Virus record (IMG/VR): IMGVR_UViG_3300049893_001743
Location: 1 to 54,153 of that record
Reading direction: 5' to 3' (one strand)
DNA length: 54,153 nucleotides
From: a virus
In this document: in pieces, positions 7,150-18,430 of the stretch
Position numbering within the stretch: the first letter of the stretch is position 1
How the letters are laid out: each line of letters begins with the position of its first letter
Made by a program: the position numbers and the translations under genes
Notes under the pieces: generated by a model
What the model was told of the DNA's origin: nothing
The model's input: the letters and a program-made list of their open reading frames with translations, nothing else
The model's database searches: none

Positions 7150-7725
7150 ATGTTTGATGTCAATGACCAGATAGATGTGGTGGATCTAACAGACGTTAAG
7201 AAGGAGAGTATGGTGCTTCCTCCTTCCAAGAACGTCAAGGTGCGTATCGTCAAAACGGAGAAGTCTCCGAGGGTATTGACGAACGAGAACACCGAGAAGG
7301 GCAAGAAGGGGGACATTAAGTCTCTTGGATTATCCCTTGAGATAGCGGATGGAATTCCGACCACGAACGTTGAGACGGGAGAGGAGACGTTGAAGTTCAA
7401 GGGCATGAAGCTAAACACTGGCATCATGGACCTGATCGTGTGGGCAGACCTGGAAGTGTCCAACAAGAAGGGTGTCAAGAGATTAGACAATAAATGGTGG
7501 AAGAATAAGCAACATCTCGTAGGACTGAAACAGTTCTGCGTAGCGTTGGATATTCCTCTGGCAGGCCTTAAGGTCACGGATGCGTTCCTATCCGAGCTTA
7601 TCGGAAGGGAGCTTCTGATCGATATCGGGCAAGAAGAGGAAACGGTTGAGAACCCTCAAACGGGTGAGTACGTCAAGACTGGTACGATGAAGAATCGCAT
7701 CCAGGCGTTTAAGAAAGTCTCGTAA
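7150..7725 (+). CDS. Probable single-stranded DNA-binding protein
   Basis: 191 residues. The ATG at 7150 is 7 nt after AGGAGG, which is better than the in-frame GTG at 7144. The protein is rich in short strands (NVKVRIVKTEKSP, KSLGLSLEIADG, GTMKNRIQAFKKV), consistent with an OB fold, and has a variable acidic middle. Position between a Sak4-like ATPase and RusA is where phages encode their SSB. Family assignment rests mainly on context, since SSB sequences of phages diverge quickly. Confidence 0.6.
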   Translation: MFDVNDQIDVVDLTDVKKESMVLPPSKNVKVRIVKTEKSPRVLTNENTEKGKKGDIKSLGLSLEIADGIPTTNVETGEETLKFKGMKLNTGIMDLIVWADLEVSNKKGVKRLDNKWWKNKQHLVGLKQFCVALDIPLAGLKVTDAFLSELIGRELLIDIGQEEETVENPQTGEYVKTGTMKNRIQAFKKVS

Positions 7726-8138
7726 TGGAACAGGCTCAGGTGGTGGAGAAGCCGTATGGGATCGCTTTTAAACTGCCTGAGCCACCTCCATCTGTTAATA
7801 GTTTGTATAACGTCATATTCAGTTTAAAGAAGGTGGAGCTTAAGAACGAGGTCAAGCTGTGGAAGTCCAAGATGAAGTTGTATGTGCCTGTGTGGAGACC
7901 TAAGGTGGTTCCTGATTCACCTTGGATGTATTTTAGGATGGACGTACATATGGATCTATTCCATAAGAACGGTAAAGTAGCCAAGTTTGATGTTATGAAC
8001 ATGGAGAAGGCGTGTATAGATATGGTGTGTGAGAAGATCGGGATAGATGACAAGTTTATATCTGAGTGTCATACGAGGAAGATCCAGTCTGAGAATGAGT
8101 ATGTAATGTGTGAGATAGGATACTTAAGTCATGTCTGA
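7725..8138 (+). CDS. RusA-like Holliday junction resolvase
   Basis: 137 residues with the RusA hallmarks: LPEPPPSVNSLY at 17-28 and the catalytic acidic stretch KFDVMNMEKACID (Asp89, Asp99) followed by IGIDDKFI (Asp108, Asp109). RusA enzymes resolve four-way junctions as dimers. It starts by a TAATG overlap with the SSB-like gene and is the last recombination gene before the noncoding RNA-like interval. Confidence 0.82.
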   Translation: MEQAQVVEKPYGIAFKLPEPPPSVNSLYNVIFSLKKVELKNEVKLWKSKMKLYVPVWRPKVVPDSPWMYFRMDVHMDLFHKNGKVAKFDVMNMEKACIDMVCEKIGIDDKFISECHTRKIQSENEYVMCEIGYLSHV

Positions 8139-8193
8139 GCATGAGGTATACATGAGATTGTATGGGTGGGCGTTGAGGATCAATAAAATTTAA

Positions 8194-8683
8194 ACCTTCG
8201 CCGTAAGGCGGGTTGATGGTGGGCTGGTACCCTGACGATGAGGTGGCGTATATCGCTTCGGAGAAACAGCTTTGACTGGAGTATCCTTCGTTGCAGACCA
8301 ACTGCCCATCAACAAAGATTGTAAGGGAATTGTAAGATTTGTGTGAGGCAAGAATGGTTAGATGGTTGCTGAAACAAGCTGTGCTAGTGCAACCCAGCAT
8401 AGTGCTGAGAAGGTTAGAATCCTTCCTAACCACTCGTCTATCGAACGGTGTTTCTTTCTGACGAGAAAGATAGGCATGAGTTTATGTAAGACAAGAATGG
8501 CTAGGCCAGCGTGTCAGGGCTGGTGGTAAGAGACAGATGGAATTGACGGCTCGACATTACTACGATGAGTTTCTGACTATAGCTTATTGGAAGTAAACTC
8601 GCGAAGTCCGTCAAGGAGCGGGGTGGGGAATCCCGCCTAGCCAGGGAAAATCCCACACAGCCAATCAACTAGAGGGGAATAAT
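8194..8683 (+). ncRNA. Candidate large structured RNA with two tRNA-like closures
   Basis: No gene fits this 490-nt interval, but stems are dense. Module 1 (8355-8432): TGGTTAG pairs with CTAACCA (7 bp), directly stacked on a 5-bp T-arm-like hairpin GAAGG-TTAGAAT-CCTTC (8409-8425), with a central 7-bp stem 8379-8385/8396-8402. Module 2 (8498-8643): TGGCTAG pairs with CTAGCCA, with GCGGG/CCCGC at 8618-8622/8632-8636, hairpin CCAGC/GCTGG, and a long arm closed by TTGACGG/CCGTCAA (8543-8549/8608-8614). An upstream domain is closed by GTTGATGG 8212-8219 with CCATCAAC 8306-8313. Both modules begin with AAGAATGG. Strand is inferred from flanking genes. No family can be assigned by eye. Confidence 0.6.
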
Positions 8684-8818
8684 ATGGTTAATTCTGAATC
8701 TATTGAGCTAGTCCTATATCGGTGGAGGAACAATTACTACGGTGCCACAATGAAATCCAATGATGACAATGCGGTTAAAGCCATTCGTGAATTATTTGAC
8801 CATGCCAAACATGAATAA
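8684..8818 (+). CDS. Small hypothetical protein, 44 aa
   Basis: First gene after the RNA-like interval; AGAGGGG lies 7 nt before ATG. Product begins MVNSESIELVLYRWRNNYYG, helical and mixed in charge. The stop overlaps the next gene's ATG. No family. Confidence 0.5.
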   Translation: MVNSESIELVLYRWRNNYYGATMKSNDDNAVKAIRELFDHAKHE

Positions 8819-11841: not shown

Positions 11842-12879
11842 ATGAAATATCTATTTCCATTAAGCCCATGGAATCAGCAACGTCAGTTTGAGAAGCCGGC
11901 ATGGGTATACCCTGCTCATCTTGCCATGTATGCTACACATCTGAGAGATCGTGGCCATGAAATCCTATGGGGCCTTACGGTAGATAAGGTGGATAGAGTA
12001 ATCTATGATGATACTCAGATTAATATTCCGTTTGAGAATCTTCCTTTTCCAGATAGAACGCTTACAGACGCCAAGAATCCTCGTTGGCAAGCCTATGGTA
12101 ATTACAAGTTTCATCCTGCTACCCATTACATGTCTTCTAACCTCTGTTGGTGGGCCGGCGCTAAGGGATGCATATTCTGTGTAGATTCTAGGAAGATTAT
12201 AGGGGGTGAGAAACGTGGAGTGCGTTCAGTTGCACATGTCATGTCTGAAATAGAGAATTGTGTATCACTTGGATTCAAGGAGATGTTTGATGATGCAGGC
12301 ACAATTCCCATTAATGATTGGTTGGAGGAATTATGCGAGCAAATGATTCTAAGCGGTCTAAGCAAAAGAATTGTCCTTGGATGCAATATGAAACCAATCC
12401 GTCAGAACTTCTCACTTATGCGGGAAGCGGGTTTCAGATTCATTCTAGTAGGAGTCGAGTCAGCAAATCAAAGCACCATAGACAAAATCCAAAAGGGTCA
12501 GCACTGCGAAAAGGTTATTGAGAATATCAAGTCTATGTCTGATGCAGGCCTTGAGCCGCATGTTACCTCCATGTTTGGGTATCCATGGGAGACTCACGAG
12601 GATGAGATGAGGACGGTAAGATTGGTCCAATTTCTCCTTAGGAAGGGTTATGCTAAGACAGCCCAGGCCTCAGTTTATTCTCCTCCAAGAACTCAGCCAG
12701 ATCCTCTCTCTACCGGTCATAAGTATATCCCAATGATCTATAACGCTTATATGCATCCTGAATTCTGGCTCAATAAGCTAAAAAGTGTACGTAAATGGGA
12801 AGATGTAACTTACATGGCAAGGGGTGGAAGGTTGATACTTGAGGAGAAGATAAGAAAGCTATGCATAAGAAAAAAATAA
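11842..12879 (+). CDS. Radical SAM protein with C-x7-C-x2-C cluster site
   Basis: 345 residues. The cluster motif is SNLCWWAGAKGCIFC (Cys102, Cys110, Cys113), the stretched form found in some B12-type-related radical SAM proteins, in a TIM-barrel context with GVESANQSTIDKIQKGQ and MFGYPWETHEDE, typical late-barrel motifs of that group. The N-terminal part (LAMYATHLRDRGHE) resembles the end of a B12-binding-like domain but is too short to be a full one. It sits at the end of the rightward operon, tail to tail with the glycan cassette, and likely acts with it, for example methylating or rearranging a sugar or lipid. Substrate unknown. Confidence 0.8.
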   Translation: MKYLFPLSPWNQQRQFEKPAWVYPAHLAMYATHLRDRGHEILWGLTVDKVDRVIYDDTQINIPFENLPFPDRTLTDAKNPRWQAYGNYKFHPATHYMSSNLCWWAGAKGCIFCVDSRKIIGGEKRGVRSVAHVMSEIENCVSLGFKEMFDDAGTIPINDWLEELCEQMILSGLSKRIVLGCNMKPIRQNFSLMREAGFRFILVGVESANQSTIDKIQKGQHCEKVIENIKSMSDAGLEPHVTSMFGYPWETHEDEMRTVRLVQFLLRKGYAKTAQASVYSPPRTQPDPLSTGHKYIPMIYNAYMHPEFWLNKLKSVRKWEDVTYMARGGRLILEEKIRKLCIRKK

Positions 12880-16947: not shown

Positions 16948-18430
16948 GTTCTACAGCAGACTCAGGTTTGGCACTAGAGGCTATGCCAGTTTTAGTCCTT
17001 AGACCCCACGAATCACGTATCTTAGACTCTGGCGTAAGGGTCATCTTAAGGAGAGACAGTCCTGCAGAGGCATATCTCTTAAACTGCCCTGGATTCTTCA
17101 CCTCAAGGACTCTATCGAAGACGAACTTTGGGTTAAGATAAAACTTCCCATAGAACCATCTAAGATGGGACTCAAGTTCATTGCGTGTATATATCTGGTC
17201 CCATAGAGGAGGCCTGAAGTCATCATTGATACGATTTGCATAATCACGCCACGGATCACCCACAATAACGCCTTCCTGTAAGGCTCGTAGATATATCTGG
17301 GTAGCTGGAAATGGTGATAGGATGGTCATCTGCATAAAGTCAGGCTTGATGCGCTTAGATAGACGTAGCGTATCCTTGACATCATCTAGAGTCTCAGTGG
17401 GATTACCCATCATAAAGTAAGCAAGCGTCTTAATCTTGTACCTCTTACACAGATCAAATGCCTTCTCTACCTGCTCAATGGAGGTCCCCTTATTAAGCTC
17501 CCTTACGACACGTGGATTGCCTGTCTCAACACCGAAATGGATGCGCTCACAGCCAGCCTCCTTCATGTTCTTAAGAAGGGCCTCATTGACCACATTTACC
17601 CTTGTGCGTACGTCCCACTTTATCTTAATTCCCCTTCTCTTAATCTCATCACATATCTCATTAACACGCTTCATGCTCACAGAGAACGTATCATCATAGA
17701 AGAAGACTTCCTTAATGCCGTTATCTTGGCACCACTGCATCTCATCTGCGACACGGTTGGCGTTCATAGCACGAAATCCCTTACCAAGGGCCGGCCTATC
17801 ACAATAAGCGCATGAGAAAGGACATCCCCTGGAGGAGAAAGCTGTGGTAGTGGGAGTATCCTCAGATAATACAGAATAATACTTATCTATATTTGTAAGC
17901 TCTCTTGCAGGGAAGGGTAGCTCATTTAGATCCTGAATGAAGCTGACCTGCCTATAGGTACGCCTCTCAATGGATGCCGTAGTATCGATTTTCCCATTAG
18001 CGATATCCTGAGCTAATGTATCCAGTGTTATCTCTCCCTCACCGACTATGACGTAATCCGCTCCTAGCCCATTAGGATTGAAGCACTCGTTAGGATAGAT
18101 TGCTGTATGAGGTCCACCTATAACCACTGGTGCTGAAGTACGCTTCCTTAACTCCTGCATGACCAGTTTGCAGTCCACCAGGGTAAACGTCATGGCAGTC
18201 AGACCTATGAGGTCTGGCTTTAAATCTGCCGCTATCTGAGCTACCTCAGGATGGTTCCACCCCTCTGCTTGGCAATCCAGTACATGCATATCGTATCCCT
18301 TATTCTTAAGGTAAGAGGCGATATAGAGTAGTCCAAGCGGAGGATACACGCCCTGCTGATCCTTAATAATTACAGGGTCATTTCCGACTAGTTCATATGT
18401 ATTAGGTACGTTTATTAGTACTATACGCAT
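16937..18430 (-). CDS. B12-binding-type radical SAM enzyme
   Basis: 497 residues from ATG at 18430, with GGAG 6 nt upstream. N-terminal Rossmann-like domain with IVLINVPN, YPPLGLLYIASYL at 29-41, DLIGLTAMT and VVIGGPH is the cobalamin-binding type, but lacks the DxHxxG histidine, as many radical SAM versions do. The radical SAM motif is RGCPFSCAYC (Cys203, 207, 210), then FYDDTFS, IHFGVETG and YFMMGNPTETLDD. Such enzymes often methylate unactivated carbons or build lipid or sugar backbones. Clear full-length family member; specific chemistry unknown. Confidence 0.88.
   Translation of the reverse strand: MRIVLINVPNTYELVGNDPVIIKDQQGVYPPLGLLYIASYLKNKGYDMHVLDCQAEGWNHPEVAQIAADLKPDLIGLTAMTFTLVDCKLVMQELRKRTSAPVVIGGPHTAIYPNECFNPNGLGADYVIVGEGEITLDTLAQDIANGKIDTTASIERRTYRQVSFIQDLNELPFPARELTNIDKYYSVLSEDTPTTTAFSSRGCPFSCAYCDRPALGKGFRAMNANRVADEMQWCQDNGIKEVFFYDDTFSVSMKRVNEICDEIKRRGIKIKWDVRTRVNVVNEALLKNMKEAGCERIHFGVETGNPRVVRELNKGTSIEQVEKAFDLCKRYKIKTLAYFMMGNPTETLDDVKDTLRLSKRIKPDFMQMTILSPFPATQIYLRALQEGVIVGDPWRDYANRINDDFRPPLWDQIYTRNELESHLRWFYGKFYLNPKFVFDRVLEVKNPGQFKRYASAGLSLLKMTLTPESKIRDSWGLRTKTGIASSAKPESAVELVN

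Follow-up and report, generated by a model that had tools for sequence, protein, structure and literature searches.

Positions 8194–8683 of a tailed-phage contig (plus strand; the extent is approximate and predicted from sequence) hold a gene for a structured non-coding RNA, which almost certainly represents a new, undescribed structured RNA family that is not in Rfam. The contig comes from IMG/VR (record IMGVR_UViG_3300049893_001743), and its whole 54-kb stretch (54,153 nt), as analysed here, is referred to as the window. The structure of the RNA is under selection, because other phages keep the pairing while the letters differ. The first-pass annotation had described the locus as an unassigned structured phage RNA with tRNA-like closures, and this part of its reading is upheld by homology among four phages, in which the stems of a core domain (domain A) covary, and by the finding that no reading frame is kept through the interval. 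The set of large structured phage RNAs is small, and this RNA brings it an undescribed family. All window features given below are on the plus strand.

Genomic Setting of the RNA

The RNA occupies a non-coding part of the early recombination region, and is co-directional with its neighbour genes. A RusA-like resolvase gene (7725–8138) lies upstream and is followed by a 20-aa mini-ORF (8131–8193) that ends just before the RNA; genes for an exonuclease and a Sak4-like annealing protein are located further upstream. Downstream is a 44-aa ORF (8684–8818), and terminase, major head, and baseplate proteins are encoded in the other half of the contig. As previously annotated, the 490 nt between these ORFs contain no plausible gene. 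The sense strand folds with a z score of about -3 (-2.9 and -3.2 in two runs against dinucleotide shuffles), whereas seven control segments downstream have z scores of -1.85 to +1.4. Homologous modules in three further phage loci (L051, L116, and L124) complete the evidence for the RNA gene.

Relatives and Module Order

BLAST searches with the RNA as query gave no significant match among the phages and plasmids of GenBank. Alignment of the radical-SAM protein of the window (11842–12879) with its L021 relative led to 14 contigs, and a DNA search of the whole records of these contigs matched one record (G023, that of L051) twice within 270 bases (best E 2.7e-4). Two parts of the window RNA, domain A and one further module (module C), are present in L051, with their order permuted. 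When the domain A sequences of the window and of L051 were used to build a covariance model (R1), a search of relatives totalling 722 kb yielded two more members, one in L124 (E 1.4e-4) and one in L116 (E 1.3e-3). The overlapping locus L036 shows the L116 match at the same place. In a second model (R2), all four domain A sequences serve as seeds; by construction, these reach 82–86 bits, and no other match exceeds 17.6 bits. The radical-SAM gene is common to a group of environmental phages, and is the best marker for RNA-bearing relatives.

The module order is A-B-C in the window, P-C-Y-A in L051, 1-A-3 in L116, and A-2 in L124, and the size of the RNA ranges from about 210 to 490 nt across members.

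Domain A and Covariation of Its Stems

The conserved core of the RNA is domain A (8212–8313), which was overlooked in the first-pass annotation. It is a four-way junction of P1, K1, P3, and K2, with linkers of 1, 1, 0, and 0 nt and an arm order as in the cloverleaf, and both R1 and R2 match it in the four phages. P1 is an acceptor-like closing helix, the 5′ strand of which (GUUGAUGG, 8212–8219) pairs with the 3′ strand (CCAUCAAC, 8306–8313). At the D-arm position is the K1 hairpin (GGG-CUGGUA-CCC, 8221–8232), which exposes the loop UGGU (8225–8228). The middle arm (8234–8292) is closed by P3 (GACGA/UCGUU, 8234–8238/8288–8292), and its contents vary among members. The K2 hairpin (GCAG-ACCAA-CUGC, 8293–8305; loop ACCA, 8297–8300) occupies the T-arm position and sits directly on P1. 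The UGGU and ACCA loops are complementary in the window and L051, are complementary over 3 nt (UGG/CCA) in L124, and are not complementary in L116. In domain A of L051, the T-arm is GATGG-TTCGATT-CCATC.

Even by eye, the closing helix changes in letters and not in pairing: it is GUUGAUGG/CCAUCAAC in the window, UGUCCUUG/CAGGGACA in L051, GGUAUCUU/AAGAUACC in L124, and GUCGGCG/CGCCGAC in L116, with the same conserved core between the strands. In an alignment of the four sequences fitted to the R1 structure (A11), 97.5% of the pair cells of P1, K1, P3, and K2 are paired. Both sides have changed in 10 of the 20 pairs (with P3 picked by scanning this same alignment), against a shuffle mean of 3.8, and none of 500 shuffles reaches as high a count. 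P1 holds seven of these changes (in seven of its eight pairs), and two of the five P3 pairs are changed on both sides. When the partners are slid, pairing falls to 34–57% and the covariation score falls from 0.675 to 0.217 at most. The K2 stem is identical in all four members, and its loop in three; as K2 never varies, covariation counts neither for nor against this stem. Domain A is a compact core of about 100–125 nt that is defined by covariation and open to probing and structure solution.

A run of tiny genes might be suspected, as small genes are closely packed in these phages and the sequence does contain short ORFs of 10–34 codons, several with Shine–Dalgarno-like starts (GTRAGR..ATGG, with ATG at 8216, 8353, 8496, and 8538). 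However, K1 and K2 are spaced 72, 74, 85, or 93 nt apart, depending on the member (85 nt in L116), so that no frame is kept, and stem letters change while pairing stays. A protein-coding reading is accordingly rejected as barely credible, and the short ORFs are probably due to chance, since no frame is conserved. Alternatively, the locus could act as DNA, as a replication origin or a recombination site with cruciforms, and recombination genes do adjoin it. Against this, the strand in the coding direction is predicted to fold more strongly by energy in five of five stretches (partly via G-U pairs), conserved G-U pairs are present in P3, and the orientation of the RNA is that of the flanking genes in all members, all of which makes a DNA element very unlikely.

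Modules B and C

The first-pass annotation had the two modules downstream of domain A start alike, and the sequence in question, AAGAATGG, is present at 8350 and 8493. Both copies sit inside a 24-nt direct repeat with 83% identity, the first copy (8338–8361) leading into module B and the second (8481–8504) into module C. A 20-nt motif of the repeat (three mismatches at most) is confined to these two places, against 0.04 occurrences expected by chance.

The closures that had been noted for these modules, TGGTTAG/CTAACCA (8355–8361/8426–8432) and TGGCTAG/CTAGCCA (8498–8504/8637–8643), are both found, each directly 3′ of a hairpin of at least 5 bp. Module B (8355–8432) consists, by sequence and fold, of a 7-bp closing helix (UGGUUAG/CUAACCA), a 2-nt linker, two hairpins, and a T-arm-like hairpin (8409–8425), which has a 5-bp stem and sits directly on the closing helix. 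Its 7-nt loop, UUAGAAU, is the T-loop reported earlier (TTAGAAT, 8414–8420). A linker hairpin predicted by folding (8437–8475) separates modules B and C. Module C (8498–8643), which is closed by UGGCUAG/CUAGCCA, contains a hairpin (8505–8524), a GGUAAGAGA box (8525–8533), an arm (8543–8614), and a hairpin that sits directly on the closing helix (8618–8636). The arm is closed by TTGACGG/CCGTCAA (8543–8549/8608–8614), in agreement with the earlier description, and measures 72 nt.

The homologue of module C in L051 shares the GGUAAGAGA box and also has GUGGGGAAU as a hairpin loop, but its closing letters are different; as read from the sequences, the window and L051 differ in both letters of one hairpin pair and of four of the seven pairs in the closing helix. 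The compensatory T-A to C-G change between the closures of B and C, to which attention had been drawn before, is real, but it is a single change, and both modules belong to one RNA.

A closure descriptor was set to demand at least seven Watson–Crick pairs in the closing helix, placed directly 3′ of a hairpin of 5 bp. It finds two closure modules in the region, against a shuffle mean of 0.015, and none of 400 shuffles reaches two. When the window is divided into 222 tiles (489 nt, both strands), the RNA tile is the only one with two closures. When G-U pairs and a one-base gap are allowed, the descriptor is commonly matched across these genomes, and a single closure alone would therefore mean little.

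Two short hairpins flank the modules, namely GCC-GUAA-GGC (8200–8209; sequence and fold), the sequence of which (GCCGUAAGG) is also found in module P of L051, and a terminal GGGA-AAA-UCCC (8644–8654; fold). Beyond the latter, CAGCCAAUCAAC (8658–8669) is an alternative partner of 8212–8217 and 8222–8226 that competes with P1 and is partly used in the minimum-free-energy fold of the whole region. In this pairing (8658–8669 with 8212–8226), the 3′ end of the RNA, CAGCCAATCAAC, would engage the 5′ strand of the domain A closing helix; it lies two bases before AGAGGGG, a ribosome-binding-site-like sequence of the next ORF. This pairing is possibly a switch; it has no counterpart seen in L051 and is not conserved.

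Comparison with Known RNA Classes

An Rfam covariance search of the window RNA matched no family. A tRNA-type acceptor helix with a T-arm stacked on its 3′ strand, together with the four-way junction order, is found in the RNA, with covariation in domain A and with the closures of modules B and C. The likeness to tRNA comprises the junction order, the 7-bp closure in modules B and C, the hairpin at the T position directly on the closing helix, pairable loops at the D and T positions, and, in module B, a 7-nt T-like loop and the 7-bp/5-bp/7-nt geometry of acceptor and T-arm. As differences, the window modules lack an anticodon arm of normal size and a 3′ CCA (the sequence after the closures encodes no such tail), K1 has only 3 bp, K2 has 4 bp and a 5-nt loop, and the loops of the phage RNA pair by Watson–Crick pairing, whereas tRNA uses G18/G19 with the T-loop. 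The Rfam tRNA model (RF00005) has no match in the window even at E values up to 10, its best score among the relatives being 21.5 bits for domain A of L051, below the cut-off of 29. ARAGORN at standard settings calls no tRNA or tmRNA, and its matches at a 40% threshold are noise. A tRNA identity is therefore rejected on the Rfam and ARAGORN tests.

tmRNA resembles the phage RNA in having a tRNA-like closure with long inserts, but it has one closure where the phage RNA has several, and neither ARAGORN nor Rfam finds a tRNA-like domain with a tag frame. Cobalamin and FMN riboswitches likewise have GGUnnnAAUCC-type hairpins beside a junction; cobalamin, FMN, and T-box riboswitches are rejected, as no aptamer covariance match is found in Rfam and the four members have no related or conserved gene downstream of the RNA. 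Self-cleaving ribozymes and group I or II introns are absent from the window at E values up to 10. A hammerhead, which was considered because of CUGACGA motifs, does not fit the stems; a Hammerhead_II line in L116 has an E value of 6.7.

GOLLD, ROOL, and OLE are also large structured bacterial or phage non-coding RNAs, and PMC12286853 describes them as forming homo-oligomers. With this precedent, the phage RNA could be an ornate architectural RNA that self-assembles by loop–loop contacts as GOLLD and ROOL do, given that it is large, structured, and found in phages, and that its exposed UGGU and ACCA loops are complementary. We consider this quite unlikely, since the RNA has no Rfam covariance match to GOLLD, ROOL, or OLE, is smaller (about 210–490 nt) and modular with a shuffled order, and loses the loop complementarity in L116.

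Action in cis or in trans

By blastp of nearby proteins, the genes directly beside the RNA show no relationship between any of the four members, so that the RNA behaves as an independent unit. Only two related pairs occur among the nearby proteins: L051 and L116 have SSB-like proteins with 46% identity, and the window and L021 have related RusA proteins. Unrelated neighbours and a module order that differs among the four members argue for separate trans-acting units, and the RNA probably acts in trans.

The principal competing reading is a cis element of the early operon, the nascent RNA either modifying RNA polymerase (processive antitermination) or setting the translation of the next gene. 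The put RNA of phage HK022 is a cis-acting element of about 70 nt that brings about processive antitermination; like the phage RNA, it is structured and lies in an early transcribed region of a phage, but the phage RNA is larger and modular. A cis role would suit the position of the RNA within a co-directional gene string and the start of the next gene within about 50 nt of the RNA end in the window, L051, and L124. In addition, the boxA-like sequence GTTCTTTGAA is located upstream of the first closing helix in two members, at a distance of 3 nt in L051 (3495–3504, minus strand) and 12 nt in L116 (17526–17535, minus strand). It resembles the boxA of rRNA leaders and may point to antitermination of a transcript that is not translated; on both strands of 786 kb, the 10-mer is present at four sites, and its link to the RNA was noticed post hoc. 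However, the window and L124 have no boxA-like site, the downstream genes are unrelated in four of four members, and the shuffled order and the sizes of about 210–490 nt would be unusual for one RNA-polymerase-binding element. In L116, moreover, a T-tailed hairpin (17136–17151, minus strand; the tail is T-rich) comes after the RNA, although such matches are no commoner than in shuffles. Taken together, these points leave a cis element unlikely, if still credible. The gene after that hairpin in L116 (16621–17121, minus strand) encodes a product that is HNH endonuclease-like by eye.

As the mechanism, we tentatively favour tRNA mimicry in trans, although we judge it less likely than not. The RNA is a string of modules with tRNA-elbow topology, in which an acceptor-like closing helix carries, on its 3′ strand, a stacked hairpin that resembles a T-arm; domain A has the full cloverleaf topology, with D- and T-position loops complementary in most members. 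The tRNA elbow, formed from the D and T loops, is presented as a known recognition surface in PMC4810234. A stable transcript, possibly cut between modules, may show elbow-like shapes in trans to host proteins and may serve as a decoy in early infection, occupying proteins to which the tRNA elbow or the acceptor–T stack is a recognition site, for example tRNA-cleaving enzymes, tRNA-modifying enzymes, or defence nucleases. Against such a mimic, no module passes as a tRNA, the K1–K2 loop complementarity fails in L116, and the number of members, four, is small; the distance of no more than about 50 nt between RNA end and next gene in three members suits a cis element too. A more specific version, which is rather unlikely, is a phage anti-defence RNA of tandem elbow mimics, shuffled and diverging among phages, that would titrate host tRNA-targeting enzymes early via a Watson–Crick loop–loop elbow unlike that of tRNA. 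If the elbow-mimic reading is true, phages engage tRNA-binding host factors by RNA and not by protein. The rest of the probability belongs to functions that we have not thought of.

Searches beyond the Four Members

Searches via the Sak4, RepA, and terminase proteins yielded no relatives that led to the RNA. R2 at E values of 0.001 or less finds nothing in genome sets from two phyla (395 and 400 genomes), a result of little weight, since the sets were chosen without knowledge of the host and included no positive control. An exact-pattern scan of viral contigs recovers L051 again together with two chance matches, and its 46 matches in genome contigs are chance-like by their flanks.

In L021, a distant relative, a non-coding structured stretch of about 480 nt (7905–8383) lies at the same place, after rusA. 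It has a closure of its own and a T-arm-like hairpin (GCAGG-UAAAAAU-CCUGC) on CCCGCUGAU, but matches neither the sequence of the window RNA nor the models, and is likely an analogue of the RNA rather than a proven member. A match of the RNA in Lactobacillus phage KC5a was rejected as T-arm likeness only. In KC5a (L057), 1447–1540 is an unannotated tRNA-like sequence, the anticodon arm of which is unusually long, and the terminase gene lies downstream of it.
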